Positions 13,108-54,803 of a stretch of 54,803 nt of DNA are shown here, piece by piece (position 1 is the first letter of the stretch; every line of letters begins with the position of its first letter). Source of the stretch: Prevotella sp. (GTDB taxonomy: Bacteria > Bacteroidota > Bacteroidia > Bacteroidales > Bacteroidaceae); NCBI GenBank assembly GCA_017475265.1, contig JAFVFY010000057.1, positions 1-54,803 of the forward strand. Reading direction: 5' to 3'. The notes under the pieces are model-generated. The model searched no databases and was not told the origin of the DNA. It worked only from the letters and a program-made list of their open reading frames with translations. The translations under genes were made by a program, and so were the position numbers.

Positions 13108-13110
13108 CAA

Positions 13111-13159
13111 CAATAACCAATAAACAATAGCCAATAAACAATAAACAATAAACAATAAC
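13111..13159 (+). repeat. 7-bp array, CAATAAA/CAATAAC family (7 units)
   Basis: Seven units (CAATAAC, CAATAAA, CAATAGC, CAATAAA x3, CAATAAC) fill the space between the sigma gene and the convergent HD gene. In this orientation the units contain TAA stops. The inverse orientation occurs at 21816-21885 and inside a gene at 22719-22746. Confidence 0.95.
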
Positions 13160-15933: not shown

Positions 15934-19155
<3,222 letters not shown>

Positions 19156-19156
19156 C

Positions 19157-19278
19157 GGCCAAAGGCCTAGATGATAAATGATAAATGTATGATGAGGAAA
19201 AGATGGAATGTCATAAGCAAAAGCAAGTGGTTATTGGTAACGGCTTTGTCGTTTATCATTTGTCATTTATCATTTAGC
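19157..19278 (+). repeat. GGCC palindrome, GATAAAT array and inverse array in a signal peptide
   Basis: After the receptor stop, GGCC-AAA-GGCC (19157-19167) is followed by two GATAAAT units (19173-19186). At 19251-19278 the inverse units GTTTATC-ATTTGTC-ATTTATC-ATTTAGC encode the core of the lipoprotein signal peptide. The two arrays can pair around the start codons. The same plan occurs at 37979-38133. Confidence 0.85.
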
Positions 19279-19626
19279 ATAGCGTCCTGTTCCTACTCCG
19301 AGGACCTCGACCTCTGTACGCTCACCGTACAACTGGTCTACCCAGAGAACACCATTGAGCCCTACGCCGGGGCACGGGTGGAACTGAAAGCCCTTGGGCA
19401 CAACGCCGTCTTCGTAGACTCCACCGACGCGCAGGGCAAGACCCGCTTCACCGTCACACCCGGTATCTATGAGGCCAGTTCTTCCTCACAGTTCCTCGAC
19501 AGCACAACAGCCACCTGGTGGCGATACAACTTCAACGGCGTAAAAAGTATGATTATCGTAGACCCCGACAGCACCAATAATATAGAAATAACGTTGAAAT
19601 CATCCAGGAAAAGGGTGGTTCACTAA
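19171..19626 (+). CDS. Small lipoprotein with carboxypeptidase-regulatory-like fold
   Basis: 151 residues. The lipobox is SIASC (Cys near residue 37), after a hydrophobic core LSFIICHLSFSIA that is encoded by four 7-bp repeat units. The mature part (LTVQLVYPENTIEPYAGARVELKALG, then DSTDAQGKTRFTVTPGIYEASSS) resembles a prealbumin/CarboxypepD-like beta-sandwich. Start choice is uncertain: ATG at 19171 lies in the upstream GATAAAT array, and ATGs at 19189 and 19192 are equally usable. It probably sits on the outer membrane beside the TonB receptor encoded 15 bases upstream. No enzymatic motif; function unknown. Confidence 0.7.
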   Translation: MINDKCMMRKRWNVISKSKWLLVTALSFIICHLSFSIASCSYSEDLDLCTLTVQLVYPENTIEPYAGARVELKALGHNAVFVDSTDAQGKTRFTVTPGIYEASSSSQFLDSTTATWWRYNFNGVKSMIIVDPDSTNNIEITLKSSRKRVVH

Positions 19627-20550: not shown

Positions 20551-21813
20551 ATGAAGCGAAAGAATATGAAACAGAGTTTATTATTTATCATTTGTTCTTT
20601 GTTCTTTAGCCCCGCAGGGGCGCAGCACGACCAGAACGTAGACCAAATCATCATCAAGGAGATTTACTGCGGCGGCTGTCCCAAGGACGAGGGCAGCGAT
20701 GTGTTCCACATGGATAAGAGCATCATCCTCTACAATAACTGCCCAGAGCGCGTCGTAGCCACGAACCTGTGCATCGGCATGGCAACACCCTATAATGCCG
20801 AGGCGAATAACATCACCAGCATCTACGACAAAGACGGACAGCTGGTGTATGAGGATGAGGGATTCATTCCGGCGCAGAACGCCATCTGGTATTTTCCCTC
20901 CACGCTCGAAATCGAACCATTCTGCCAGGTGGTGGTAAACATTCACGGGGCCATCGACAACACCAAGACCTACTCACAGTCGGTGAACTATGCCTTTCCT
21001 ACCTACTACTGCATGTACGACCCAGAGAGCGGATATAACAACACCATGTACTACCCCACCCCATCTGACGTTATTCCAACTAGCCACTACCTGAAGACTG
21101 TGAAGTACGGAATGGCGAACTCATGGCCTCTGAGCACTACATCACCCGCACTGTTCATTTTCCAGACACAAGACATGTCACCCGTGGACTTTGCCAACAA
21201 TGCCGACAACCTCTGGTATGCTCCAGGCGTGGCGCAGACCCCCGTCTATTCCTGCGTGAAGGTTCCAGTTGAATGGATTATCGACGGCGTGGAGGTGTTC
21301 AACTCTGCCAAGAAAGAGAGCAGCATGAAACGCCTCACCGCCGACATCGATGCCGGCTATGTCTATCTGACGAACAGGCTGGGACACACGCTCTACCGCA
21401 ACGTCGACCAGGAGATGACCGAGGCCCTGCCTGAGAACGAGGGCAGGCTGGCATACGACTATGCCCTCGGTGTGGACGGCAGCACCGACCCCAGCGGCAT
21501 AGATGCCGAAGAGAGTCTCGTAAGAGGGGCTCACATCGTCTATCGCGATTACAATGACTCCAGTAACGACTTCCATGAACGCCAGCGCTGCTCACTGCGC
21601 GACTATATGCCGCTGATAGATGACCCGCAGCCGAAACCAATAAAAGGCGACGTGAACGGCGATGATGCCGTGGACGTTGCCGATATATCAGCCATTATCT
21701 CCGTTATGGCGGGCTCTGCCACCTACGAATATGCTGACGTAAACAATGATGGCACCGTAGACGTAGCCGACATTTCATCAGTAATCACTATCATGGCAGG
21801 GGACAACAAATAA
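20551..21813 (+). CDS. DUF4876 family secreted protein with dockerin-like tail
   Basis: 420 residues. The signal peptide ends AGAQ; its hydrophobic core SLLFIICSLFFS comes from five 7-bp repeat units. The main part begins IIIKEIYCGGCPKDEGSDVFHMDKS and matches DUF4876, a family seen beside TonB receptors in Bacteroidetes. The C-terminus carries two calcium-loop repeats, GDVNGDDAVDVADISAII and YADVNNDGTVDVADISSV, of dockerin type (D-x-N-x-D-x-x-x-D). It is likely exported to the surface together with the DUF6850 barrel encoded next. No cohesin is seen in this window. Confidence 0.75.
   Translation: MKRKNMKQSLLFIICSLFFSPAGAQHDQNVDQIIIKEIYCGGCPKDEGSDVFHMDKSIILYNNCPERVVATNLCIGMATPYNAEANNITSIYDKDGQLVYEDEGFIPAQNAIWYFPSTLEIEPFCQVVVNIHGAIDNTKTYSQSVNYAFPTYYCMYDPESGYNNTMYYPTPSDVIPTSHYLKTVKYGMANSWPLSTTSPALFIFQTQDMSPVDFANNADNLWYAPGVAQTPVYSCVKVPVEWIIDGVEVFNSAKKESSMKRLTADIDAGYVYLTNRLGHTLYRNVDQEMTEALPENEGRLAYDYALGVDGSTDPSGIDAEESLVRGAHIVYRDYNDSSNDFHERQRCSLRDYMPLIDDPQPKPIKGDVNGDDAVDVADISAIISVMAGSATYEYADVNNDGTVDVADISSVITIMAGDNK
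20577..20621 (+). repeat. 7-bp array in a signal peptide, followed by a GC palindrome
   Basis: Units TTTATTA, TTTATCA, TTTGTTC, TTTGTTC, TTTAGCC (20577-20611) overlap the perfect palindrome GCCCC-GCA-GGGGC (20609-20621). Read on the other strand, this is a palindrome with loop TGC, then CTAAAG, then GATAAAT-like units, the same order as at 37979-38043. Confidence 0.85.
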
Positions 21814-21815
21814 TA

Positions 21816-21885
21816 TTGGTTATTGTTTATTGGTTATTGATTATTGGTTATTGTTTATTGGTTATTGTTTATTGGTTATTGTTTA
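21816..21885 (+). repeat. 7-bp array, TTGGTTA/TTGTTTA family (10 units)
   Basis: Ten units, mainly alternating TTGGTTA and TTGTTTA, fill the gap between the DUF4876 and DUF6850 genes up to one base before the ATG. It is the inverse of the CAATAAA family at 13111 and 36550. Confidence 0.95.
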
Positions 21886-37975: not shown

Positions 37976-37978
37976 TGC

Positions 37979-38043
37979 GGCCTGCGGCCTAAATGATAAA
38001 TGATAAATGAAAAATGAGAAATGAAAAATGATAAATGAGAAAT
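37979..38043 (+). repeat. GGCC palindrome and GATAAAT array (7 units) before lptC
   Basis: GGCC-TGC-GGCC (37979-37989) then TAAAT and seven 7-bp units: GATAAAT, GATAAAT, GAAAAAT, GAGAAAT, GAAAAAT, GATAAAT, GAGAAAT (37995-38043). The last units contain the lptC start region. The palindrome begins three bases after the stop codon of the preceding gene. Confidence 0.95.
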
Positions 38044-38781
38044 ATGATTACTTTCAAAATGACGCGTATGGATGAATCTTTGCGGAGAGCAGCCATAGCA
38101 ACCATATTTGTTATTTCTCTTTTTTCATTTTCCACTTCGTCCTGTACCGAACCCCACGAGCACACGGCACGTGCCATCAACCCCGAAGACTCGGCCAGCA
38201 TCATGGTGAGCTACGGAGTAAACACCCTTATTAGCGACTCTGGTGTGATAAAATATCGCATCGTTACCGAGCGGTGGGAGGTGAACACTGTGCGCCAGCC
38301 CTCGCGGTGGGAGTTTATGAAGGGAATCTTCTTCGAACAGTTCGATGAGCAGTTCCACGTACAGGGTTACATACAGGCCGACACTGCCTGGTACTTTGAC
38401 CAGCAGCGGCTGTGGAAGCTGCGCGGAAGGGTTAACCTCCGCAACAACAACGGACTGATATACACCAGCGAAGAACTGTACTGGGACGGTGTTCGCCATG
38501 AGTTCTACTCTACTGTGTTCTCACGTGTCGTAACACCAGAACGCACCATGGAGGGAACCTACTTCCGCAGCGACGAGAAGATGGACCACTATCTCGTGAC
38601 CAACTCCAAAGGCTCGTTCATTGCCTCGGACTTCGACCCGGAACCTGACCCTGCCGACACCGCGACAATCGTTCCCGCTGGTACTACTGTCACCACCGTA
38701 TCGCCCACGACTGTCACTCCTCCCGCGTCGGGCAGTTCACCTGCCGTCACGGCAGATACAATCTCCAACCCGAAACCATGA
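38035..38781 (+). CDS. lptC: LPS export periplasmic protein LptC
   Basis: 248 residues with start at 38035, or fewer from ATGs at 38044, 38059 or 38068. A lipobox-like STSSC (Cys about 37) suggests a lipoprotein or membrane-anchored form. The fold part SGVIKYRIVTERWEVN, KGIFFEQFDEQFHVQGYIQADTAWYFDQQRLWKLRGRVNLRNNNG and YTSEELYWDGVRHEFYS matches the beta-jellyroll of LptC, which hands LPS from LptB2FG to LptA. A Pro/Thr-rich tail of about 45 residues follows. The hydrophobic core IFVISLFSFSTSS is made by degenerate 7-bp units. The stop overlaps the next gene by four bases. Confidence 0.8.
   Translation: MRNMITFKMTRMDESLRRAAIATIFVISLFSFSTSSCTEPHEHTARAINPEDSASIMVSYGVNTLISDSGVIKYRIVTERWEVNTVRQPSRWEFMKGIFFEQFDEQFHVQGYIQADTAWYFDQQRLWKLRGRVNLRNNNGLIYTSEELYWDGVRHEFYSTVFSRVVTPERTMEGTYFRSDEKMDHYLVTNSKGSFIASDFDPEPDPADTATIVPAGTTVTTVSPTTVTPPASGSSPAVTADTISNPKP
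38106..38133 (+). repeat. Degenerate inverse GATAAAT array in the lptC signal sequence
   Basis: ATTTGTT, ATTTCTC, TTTTTTC, ATTTTCC: four units of the inverse family, encoding IFVISLFSFS. They could pair with the array at 37995-38043. Confidence 0.7.
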
Positions 38782-53256: not shown

Positions 53257-54803
53257 ATGAAACGAATCAGTTTTTTATTACGATTCCCGTTAGTTCTGCT
53301 GGCAGTGCTTGCGCTTACCGCTTGTCCTCCAGACCCAGTGGAGGACTTTTTGAGTGCATCCTCAGACAAAGTGGAAATCGTAAATGGAAGGGGAGAAGTG
53401 ACTATCCTCTCCAATGTGAAATGGAATGTCACATCAAAACCCACATGGCTCAATTGCCCGGAAACAGAAGGTCAGGGCGAAAAACTACTACAATTCACTG
53501 CGGAGGAAAACCCCGACACAACTCAGCGTTCAGGAACCCTAACAGTGAAAAGCACTGCAGGAAACATGGCAGTCAATATCAATGTATGGCAAAAAGGCAC
53601 TCCAAAGCCTGGCCCTGACCCTGACCCAGATGTCATTACGCTCAACACCCAAACGTCGGCAGTCCTAAATGTAGCTTTTTCAGAAGGGGAGTATGGCGTG
53701 ACTGTGTCTGCAAGCAATAGTTGGAGCATGAGCGAACCGGAATACAGTGAAGGGTCATCCGGTTGGATCACATTTGCGAATTACACATCTGGGACTACCT
53801 ATGGAAAAGGGGAAGTGTATGTGAAAATGAATATAAAGGAGAATCCCACTGTGACAGAACGAAGCGCCGTCATCACTTTCACCTGTGGAAAAGCCTCCGC
53901 CCGCTTGACTGTTAATCAGGCCAAGGCAGGAGAAAGGCTAACAATAGGCGATGACAAGAATACCACAATCAGCCATGTATTCAAGAACAATGAAAAAGAC
54001 AGCGTGAAGTTCAAGGTAGAGTCGAATGTGACTTGGAAAGCTACAAGCGACAAAAATTGGTGCAAGGTGAGTCCTGAGCAACACAGCAACGATGGTGAAA
54101 TCACCATAGTGGCGGAAAAAAACGATGACAAAGATTCACGCCCCGCTGTTGTAACCGTAAGCAGCGGAAATCTTACGTGCAAAGTAAATGTGACACAGCC
54201 TGGAAGAGGAGCTTTCCTTACCGTCAACAACGCCACAAGCACAACCGTTGATTTCACCAAGAAAGACGCTGACAGTAAAACCTTCAGCATACAGAGCAAC
54301 GTCTCATGGGAAGTGAGCAGCGACCAGAACTGGTGTACGGTCAGCCCGAAGAGCGGAAGCAACGGCGGCACTGTCACGGTAAATGTCACGGCCAACACTG
54401 GCAGCACTGAGCGCACGGCCAAGGTCACGGTGAAGGGTGGTGGCATCACTCGCACCGTCACGGTGACACAGGCAGGGGAGGCTTTCCTCACCGTTGACAA
54501 AAAAACAAGCACAACCGTCGCTTTCACCAAGAAAGACGCTGGCAGCAAATCATTCAGCATAGAGAGTAACGTCTCATGGGAAGTGAGCAGCGACCAGAGC
54601 TGGTGTACGGTCAGCCCGAAGAGTGGGAGCAACGGCGGCACTGTCACGGTAAATGTTACGGCCAACACTGGCAGTACTGAGCGCACAGCCACGGTCACGG
54701 TGAAGGGTGGTGGCATCACTCGCACCGTCACGGTGACACAAGCGGGAGAGATAGTCATACTTGTCAACAACAGCACAAGCACCACCGTCGATTTCGACAC
54801 GAA
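53257..54803 (+). CDS. Lipoprotein with tandem BACON domains (cut by the window end)
   Basis: At least 515 residues; no stop before the window edge. Lipoprotein signal LAVLALTACPP (Cys about 24). BACON-type domains follow at about 30-110 (VKWNVTSKPTWLNCPE), 125-225 (SWSMSEPEYSEGSSGWITF), 226-315 (VTWKATSDKNWCKVSP), 319-408 and 409-498, then a further start. Each repeats V-x-W-x-V-x-S-x2-x-W-C-x-V-S-P and ends V-T-Q-x-G. The domains at 319-408 and 409-498 are almost identical at the DNA level. It is likely a surface rod that presents or anchors a partner; mucin or glycan binding is suggested for BACON but not shown. Confidence 0.8.
   Translation, partial: MKRISFLLRFPLVLLAVLALTACPPDPVEDFLSASSDKVEIVNGRGEVTILSNVKWNVTSKPTWLNCPETEGQGEKLLQFTAEENPDTTQRSGTLTVKSTAGNMAVNINVWQKGTPKPGPDPDPDVITLNTQTSAVLNVAFSEGEYGVTVSASNSWSMSEPEYSEGSSGWITFANYTSGTTYGKGEVYVKMNIKENPTVTERSAVITFTCGKASARLTVNQAKAGERLTIGDDKNTTISHVFKNNEKDSVKFKVESNVTWKATSDKNWCKVSPEQHSNDGEITIVAEKNDDKDSRPAVVTVSSGNLTCKVNVTQPGRGAFLTVNNATSTTVDFTKKDADSKTFSIQSNVSWEVSSDQNWCTVSPKSGSNGGTVTVNVTANTGSTERTAKVTVKGGGITRTVTVTQAGEAFLTVDKKTSTTVAFTKKDAGSKSFSIESNVSWEVSSDQSWCTVSPKSGSNGGTVTVNVTANTGSTERTATVTVKGGGITRTVTVTQAGEIVILVNNSTSTTVDFDT
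54211..54750 (+). repeat. 270-bp tandem repeat encoding two BACON domains
   Basis: 54211-54480 and 54481-54750 match over most of their length, with long identical runs (for example the stretch encoding NVSWEVSSDQ and CTVSPKSGSNGG). A third unit begins at 54751 and is cut off. The near-identity points to recent duplication or gene conversion. Confidence 0.9.

Follow-up and report, generated by a model that had tools for sequence, protein, structure and literature searches.

A Prevotella lipoprotein signal peptide built from a 7-bp repeat, and evidence that it belongs to a small inverted-repeat cassette recurring before other genes

Signal peptides tolerate sequence change, and the origin of new ones is an open question. 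A lipoprotein gene of Prevotella sp. (source genome 4.75 Mb) raises this question, since the hydrophobic core of its signal peptide (SP) is encoded by units of a 7-bp repeat, and inverse copies of the same repeat lie just upstream: where does an export signal written in repetitive DNA come from? Our analysis covered a stretch of 54,803 nucleotides around the gene, here called the window, together with related loci in other genomes. The comparisons below point to positions 19155-19290 being a copy of a small inverted-repeat cassette that replaced the leader and SP of the lipoprotein, and to such cassettes having been copied between genes, a reading to which we assign a probability of roughly 0.7.

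The lipoprotein gene lies on the forward strand, as do all features given here, between an ORF for a TonB-dependent receptor (15934-19155) and ORFs with DUF3667, DUF4876 and DUF6850. The receptor's TAG stop (19153-19155) lends its last base to the first base of a GC hairpin, GCGGCC-AAA-GGCC (19155-19167), and this 5' cap is followed by a leader heptad array (TAGATGATAAATGATAAATG, 19168-19187), by a spacer with the likely start codon and n-region (MMRKRWNVISKSKWLLVTA, 19189-19244), which resembles the KNRWMMVIG core of other cassettes, and by an inverse array of four units and TTT (TTTGTCG-TTTATCA-TTTGTCA-TTTATCA-TTT, 19245-19275, then AGC). As the earlier note had claimed, this inverse heptamer encodes the SP core (LSFIICHLSF); translation across it reads LSFIICHLSFS and continues into the lipobox IASC, which with the preceding AGC-ATA-GCG occupies 19276-19290 (Cys codon 19288-19290). 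AGC-ATA-GCG is possibly the remnant of a 3' hairpin; a search for a stem of at least 3 bp at the right end of this copy found none. Every element that the note listed is present, namely GGCC-AAA-GGCC (19157-19167), two GATAAAT units (19173-19186) and four inverse units (19245-19275), although the arrays are separated by fewer than 60 bases and not by the 65 given, as the inverse array starts at 19245.

The ORF (P0001, 151 residues, 19171-19626) gave zero matches in a Pfam search at 1e-3 and has three in-frame ATGs, at 19171, 19189 and 19192. The start codon had been placed within the GATAAAT array; an in-frame ATG does exist at 19171, but it is weak as a start, and 19189 or 19192 is likelier because a compact basic n-region (MRKRW) then results, so the array may not hold the start codon that is used. 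By inspection, the product has the features of a lipoprotein SP, with a basic n-region, a hydrophobic core and a lipobox cysteine (MRKRW...LLVTALSFIICHLSFS-IASC).

The inverse orientation of the two arrays admits more than one explanation. The arrays could pair, as had been proposed: the predicted window fold has an energy of -40.4 kcal/mol (z -2.7; equally good in 4 of 200 shuffles), and in it 19168-19187 pairs with the 3' array. On this view the inverted arrays would serve to fold the mRNA into a hairpin controlling the start codon, an idea that also draws on inverse pairing between quite different heptads at the gene for Skp, described below. We consider such a switch improbable, however, as the starts that we favor lie at the end of the stem or past it, a clear 5' arm is absent from 39 of 59 SP arrays in the pattern-based set below, and the stops in forward arrays already account for the orientation. 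Forward arrays do contain stops while the reverse strand reads as a hydrophobic 7-residue cycle (IIYHLSF), as the earlier note had recognized, and, since 7 = 1 mod 3, all three frames of the array give this cycle. In a cassette, the 5' arm would lie outside the coding frame because of these stops and the 3' arm would be read through, so that the opposite orientation of the arms would be explained without a regulatory role.

Could heptad-coded cores simply reflect hydrophobic codon bias? T-rich codons are hydrophobic, which is what such a chance origin would build on, yet its probability is negligible when set against the counts. With up to two mismatches, GATAAATGATAAAT has 19 matches in the window compared with a mean of 0.29 in 100 shuffles. 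We also analyzed an own-genome sample of 444,303 bases, made up of 20 stretches of three contigs (picked as large among the matches listed) and the window. Period-7 DNA underlies 12 of 94 SP-like N-termini in this sample and 1 of 204 others (p = 6e-6; SP calls followed simple rules that may let in a few spurious ORFs), whereas period 9 was found in one of the 94 and periods 4, 5, 6, 8, 10 and 11 in none. Heptamer-coded SPs, for which a search of genomes had been suggested, recur in this sample, with period 7 concentrated in SP-like N-termini. One of the 12 belongs to the same gene cluster as the lipoprotein (MKRKNMKQSLLFIICSLFFSPAGAQ, 20551-20625) and carries GCCCC-GCA-GGGGC at its cleavage site.

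Repeats of this period are abundant well beyond SPs. At the lowest threshold, the own-genome sample contains 90 period-7 arrays with a wide variety of unit sequences. Periods 9 and 22 yield 23 arrays apiece and periods 4, 5, 6, 8 and 10 between 0 and 4, with 14 and 21 counting as harmonics of 7; one Markov simulation of the sample gave no period-7 array. At a higher threshold, 30 of 76 period-7 arrays fall between ORFs, in DNA that makes up 10.8% of bases. Tandem 7-bp direct repeats thus occur at many places, as in heptanucleotide (STRR-like) repeats, and when 1.19 Mb of related loci, a set enriched by the mode of retrieval, was scanned with a detector for the ATTTATC family, 145 arrays were obtained, against one in reversed sequence. 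As the earlier note had proposed, one repeat family is found at gene ends, at starts and in SPs. A further copy of the leader half alone (37977-38043), with a GCGGCC-TGC-GGCC hairpin and 7.7 TAAATGA units, runs into the start of an ORF (38035-38781).

The window contains further repeats. In the TonB receptor, about 14 in-frame TCAGACT heptads (16755-16864) encode a hydrophilic linker (QTSDHRLQTSDFRLQ), which is a heptad array put to the opposite use. Heptad arrays at 21814-21885 (TATTGGTTATTGTT) and 13109-13158 (AACAATA) occupy nearly the entire gap between ORFs, and a 270-bp tandem repeat (54220-54795, 2.1 copies at 87%) lies inside an ORF at the window end. Elsewhere in the genome (C33:11478), an ORF contains an ATTTATC array with GCGTAGCGC in what looks, by eye, like a membrane-spanning stretch. 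In Rfam, the sole match to the window was a tRNA.

The abundance and variety of period-7 arrays would also fit a route without any mobile unit, in which 7-bp slippage arises independently in many SPs that tolerate hydrophobic, T-rich arrays. This route is favored by the over-representation of period 7 with many unit sequences in this genome, and by the heptamer excess that bacteria generally show according to the available part of one report (PMC4692102). In addition, a clear inverse leader arm is absent from 6 of 13 heptad SPs of Skp and from the 39 of 59 SP arrays mentioned above. We nevertheless judge independent slippage to be unlikely, on the strength of four observations set out in what follows: hairpins that sit exactly at the array end, leader and SP arms that share a heptad type, non-repeat spacers that are near-identical before unrelated genes, and sister genes that differ abruptly.

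In order to ask whether the SP of the lipoprotein is shared by its relatives, we compared orthologues. Matches to the lipoprotein query come almost entirely from Prevotella or Prevotellaceae, and 14 loci (L031-L044) align across most of the mature protein. The closest orthologue among those found (L031; 90% identity over the part that aligns, residues 39-151) lacks the cassette and has a plain SP; its receptor stop and lipobox Cys codon are 41 bases apart, compared with 132 in the window. No ATTTATC array was found in the roughly 200 bases inspected at each of six further orthologues (L032-L037). Orthologues that keep the same SP with unrelated codons had been named as the case that would speak for chance; instead, close orthologues differ in both the SP and its DNA. 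Judged from these alignments, the SP of the window lipoprotein appears not to be inherited, its native leader and SP having apparently been replaced by the cassette.

Two of the orthologues have SPs that overlap other repeats. In L039 the SP overlaps ATTCCAC heptads, with GGAATGA units upstream, and in L042 it overlaps a CCCACCCCAACCCCTCCCT palindrome. In these two and in an Skp locus (L230), the repeats are ATTCCAC heptads and CCCACCCCAACCCCTCCCT-like palindromes that recur in inverted form ahead of the start codon, which suggests a second cassette family.

The first part of the lipoprotein recurs without the rest. At 53 further loci (L045-L097) the query was matched by its first part alone, and in the 26 of these that we examined, other genes carry this SP DNA; some of these genes are mutual paralogues, and several copies lack the 5' arm. 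Full copies show, in order, an upstream stop, a hairpin with TAAATGA units, a spacer with the start codon, inverse units and a second hairpin, so that hairpin and heptad form terminal inverted repeats at both ends. The spacer core is often KNRWMMVIG, the inverse units read LSFIICHLSFS, and the end hairpin reads PARAQ, EAQAQ or VCAC; inverse heptads and second hairpin thus encode the hydrophobic core and the cleavage site of an SP. Half-units may also multiply by themselves, as one locus (L071, 3987-4098) has three tandem hairpin and TAAATGA copies before one cassette. In an Acidobacteria MAG (L089; 2232-2328, 8623-8729 and 12502-12603), inverted CAAATGA/TTTGTCA-like arrays are separated by 19-29 bp, a layout related to that of the cassette, whether it arose independently or was transferred.

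These loci had been selected by peptide, and further array sets were therefore built by DNA pattern. Among the matches listed in the genus and family samples, with stretches hand-chosen and mostly exact matches, there were 126 distinct arrays, 59 of which encode an N-terminal core and 67 of which do not; the same split was obtained after antisense readings were excluded, with slightly changed membership. A clear inverse array lies within 220 bp upstream of 20 of the 59 SP arrays and 14 of the 67 others. A perfect stem (at least 3 bp, 3-nt loop) starts exactly after TTTA in 70 of the 126 arrays (33 SP arrays and 37 others), as compared with 2.3 and 2.1 expected from shuffled sequence and 0-5 at ten other offsets. 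The two groups contain 14 and 16 distinct stem-loops, respectively (counts in a refined set were unchanged except for 15 in place of 16), for example GCCCC-GCA-GGGGC, GCCAC-GCA-GTGGC and GCAATGC-TAC-GCATTGC, and base pairing in the caps is retained although the stem letters differ. Both the exact placement of the hairpins at the array end and the heptad type shared by the two arms argue against slippage in place.

Arrays that serve as SPs differ from the others in composition and length. At unit 3, the ratio of G (Cys) to A (Tyr) is 42:15 in SP arrays and 26:35 in the others (p = 0.0008, uncorrected and with descent ignored). For units 1, 2 and 4 a first test gave p values of 0.07, 0.08 and 0.17, uncorrected for multiple testing or descent, while in the refined set unit 2 reached an uncorrected p of 0.009 (Ile codon favored) and units 1 and 4 gave 0.24 and 0.17. 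More than four units are found in none of the 59 SP arrays and in 21 of the 67 others, and 58 SP arrays have exactly four, in counts taken from pattern-fetched rows alone with a pattern that needed about four units and to which shorter arrays are invisible. The bias at unit 3 and the absence of longer SP arrays suggest selection on the encoded peptide. Heptanucleotide repeats act as a phase-variation switch in Haemophilus hmw1A, and tandem 7-mers close to a start codon could in the same way form a contingency locus at which gain or loss of units turns the lipoprotein on and off. With imperfect units, and with unit numbers so uniform within the range that the pattern can see, we regard this as very improbable. 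In a related genus (g14), arrays among the matches listed are largely outside SPs, so that a repeat which in that genus is mainly intergenic may have come to serve as an SP secondarily.

The case for copying between genes comes from cassettes before genes that are otherwise unrelated. In the genome RUI127, three genes with dissimilar products have cassettes that agree at 100, 88 and 88% in the 75 bp preceding the array; the first parts of the three mature proteins show a weak GH2_N match below the cut-off, Reg_prop and no family. Similarity begins at the 5' hairpin and extends as far as the cleavage-site GCGCA, beyond which no clear similarity is seen. The cassettes of four genes in the genome RGIG4775 show the same pattern at 76-87%, before genes for BatD, a TPR protein, a protein with no family match and a fourth protein. 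Dispersed near-identical copies with sharp ends, as in MITEs, were thus found in RUI127, the RGIG4775 copies being less similar. No target-site duplication was seen by eye in the aligned cassettes of these two genomes, where the right end is the conserved cleavage codon pair.

More broadly, we kept 113 SP cassettes after removing antisense and doubtful readings, with mature proteins in 63 clusters. Spacers matched at E <= 1e-3 in 327 of 6,215 pairs before non-homologous genes, shared descent being ignored, and 23 of these match between clusters over at least 55 bp at 78% identity or more, some of which may hide remote lipoprotein homology. When six cassettes of the own genome were compared by spacer, only one (L153) had a strong partner before another gene (L082, in another genome, 79%), so that recent copying is not evident within the own genome. 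Non-repeat spacers this similar before unrelated genes are difficult to reconcile with slippage that arose separately in each SP.

The conserved gene for Skp (OmpH), matched in 277 of 299 genus genomes, allowed SPs to be compared within one family. Our set comprised 70 loci from the 277 genomes (30 best and 40 picked) as well as L062 and L066 from the earlier SP-based search; with L066 removed because it duplicates L221, 71 distinct loci remained. Strong 7-bp periodicity is present in 13 of the 71 SPs, which are of four types and scattered on the tree: ATTTATC (L221 and L062), TTCTTTN/TTTATTN (L241, L242, L254 and L261, of which L242 is from the own genome), TTTTCAC (L275) and TTCACTC (six loci). 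Most of the others look plain, including all four loci picked for their cassette-rich genomes (G221, G136, G291 and G192). A 9-bp period, as in ICAICVICG, is frequent among plain Skp SPs (L240, L258, L276, L288 and others) and may point to a further origin from repeats.

A matching inverse leader array accompanies 7 of the 13 heptad SPs of Skp and 2 of the 58 others (p = 4e-5, descent ignored), or 5 of 11 and 2 of 58 without L062 and L221, the entries from the SP-based search (p = 7e-4). The two exceptions look like a decayed cassette (L228) and the palindrome type (L230). On the tree, the seven loci with both arms need seven changes, and they cluster no more than shuffled labels do. Three sister pairs (L242/L244, L261/L263 and L275/L264), whose mature DNA is 87, 89 and 93% identical, align on both flanks and fail to align from the upstream stop to the cleavage site. 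Such abrupt differences between sister genes weigh against gradual expansion in place and are what replacement by a cassette would leave behind.

How widely is the cassette distributed, and what might move it? With up to two mismatches, a 34-mer matched 68 of 299 genus genomes in a patchy manner, with up to 43 matches in one. The family sample gave 14 matching genomes out of 301, among them two from the own genus. Matches were rare in the wider samples, with 3 of 295 genomes for the order and 2 of 395 for the phylum, the own genome being one of them each time, and in the other three genomes the AGC end is absent among the matches listed. A strict RWMMVIG-core pattern matched the window copy alone in the own genome. 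Searches for the exact 34-mer in viral contigs gave no match, and the cassette matched none of the phage records; in a plasmid collection there were two matches, to Neisseria gonorrhoeae records of 2.17 Mb, over 31% of the query at 78%, perhaps owing to low complexity.

REP and REPIN elements, which have hairpin units in inverted pairs, go with RAYT transposases. As a simple mover of the cassette, a Y1/RAYT transposase was rejected: of 12 cassette-rich genomes 7 carry Y1_Tnp, the one transposase family covered, and of 12 cassette-free genomes 8 do. Three matches to PF01797 (Y1_Tnp) occur in the own genome, none of them flanked by the same repeat in the manner of REP/REPIN loci; the best (L098) has other palindromes and no heptad arrays, and a motif scan found nothing at L100 and one 8-mer at L099. 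The cassette shares inverted hairpin units with REP/REPIN but has heptad arms, and no link to a RAYT was found. On present comparisons it would be filed with small palindromic mobile repeats rather than with REP/RAYT.

The nearest precedent that we found is the enterobacterial RU-2 or Yersinia palindromic sequence, a 168-bp repeat that in YPO1552 forms part of a predicted SP (PMC2759123, PMC2229807). As in our case, a small palindromic mobile repeat lies in an SP while relatives have unrelated SPs; the consulted portions of these reports describe few loci and no heptads, whereas the Prevotella cassettes involve many genes and several repeat types and provide both core and cleavage region. Rickettsia palindromic elements (105-146 bp) lie in frame within genes (PMC2229807), though the portion consulted does not describe them as SPs or heptad arrays, and the Prevotella cassettes are N-terminal. 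TAACTGA heptamer arrays of Beggiatoaceae, Cyanobacteria and five Bacteroidetes (PMC4679880) are likewise 7-bp direct repeats near start codons with forward stops and an open reverse reading (LSVISYQ), but an inverted cassette, a hairpin cap, an SP or copying between genes is not described in the available text. BrickBuilt, a MITE of Porphyromonas gingivalis in the same phylum, has tandem repeats with inverted ends (PMC4596501); its unit is 23 bp, it is always intergenic, and no protein role is described in the part available. To judge from these parts, the literature already contains heptamer repeats near starts (PMC4679880), the bacterial heptamer excess (PMC4692102), an SP partly formed by a Yersinia repeat (PMC2759123) and a Porphyromonas MITE made of tandem repeats (PMC4596501). 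Among the titles and abstract beginnings listed from the open-licence literature, we found neither SPs made from tandem heptamers nor mobile or recurrent SP cassettes.

We therefore favor a cassette of about 110-190 bp, an inverted repeat with heptanucleotide arms and hairpin caps, the terminal hairpin region of which would give the c-region (AxA-Q or lipobox). Such cassettes would be copied among a genome's genes by a mover or by ectopic recombination, and would then be shaped by peptide selection and later decay to ordinary-looking SPs. Mobility as such, export function, the direction of events and decay are all steps that we infer from comparing sequences. A bolder version, which we hold tentatively and at somewhat less than even odds, is that the cassettes form a class of small mobile elements that owe their success to serving as SPs. 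Each element would comprise leader, start region, core and cleavage site, would land 5' of genes for exported proteins and replace the old SP, and would re-supply the genome's export signals, including that of Skp, so that SPs would continually arise from heptad repeats and decay.

A single conserved gene carries SPs derived from distinct repeats in separate lineages, some copies have a decayed look, and closely similar ones precede unrelated genes, so that the birth of SPs becomes directly testable. The unexplained excess of 7-bp repeats in bacteria also gains a biological consequence, because with 7 = 1 mod 3 one strand of such a repeat is a hydrophobic cycle in any frame while the other is closed. 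Such rumen bacteria may thus make and swap export signals from repetitive DNA.
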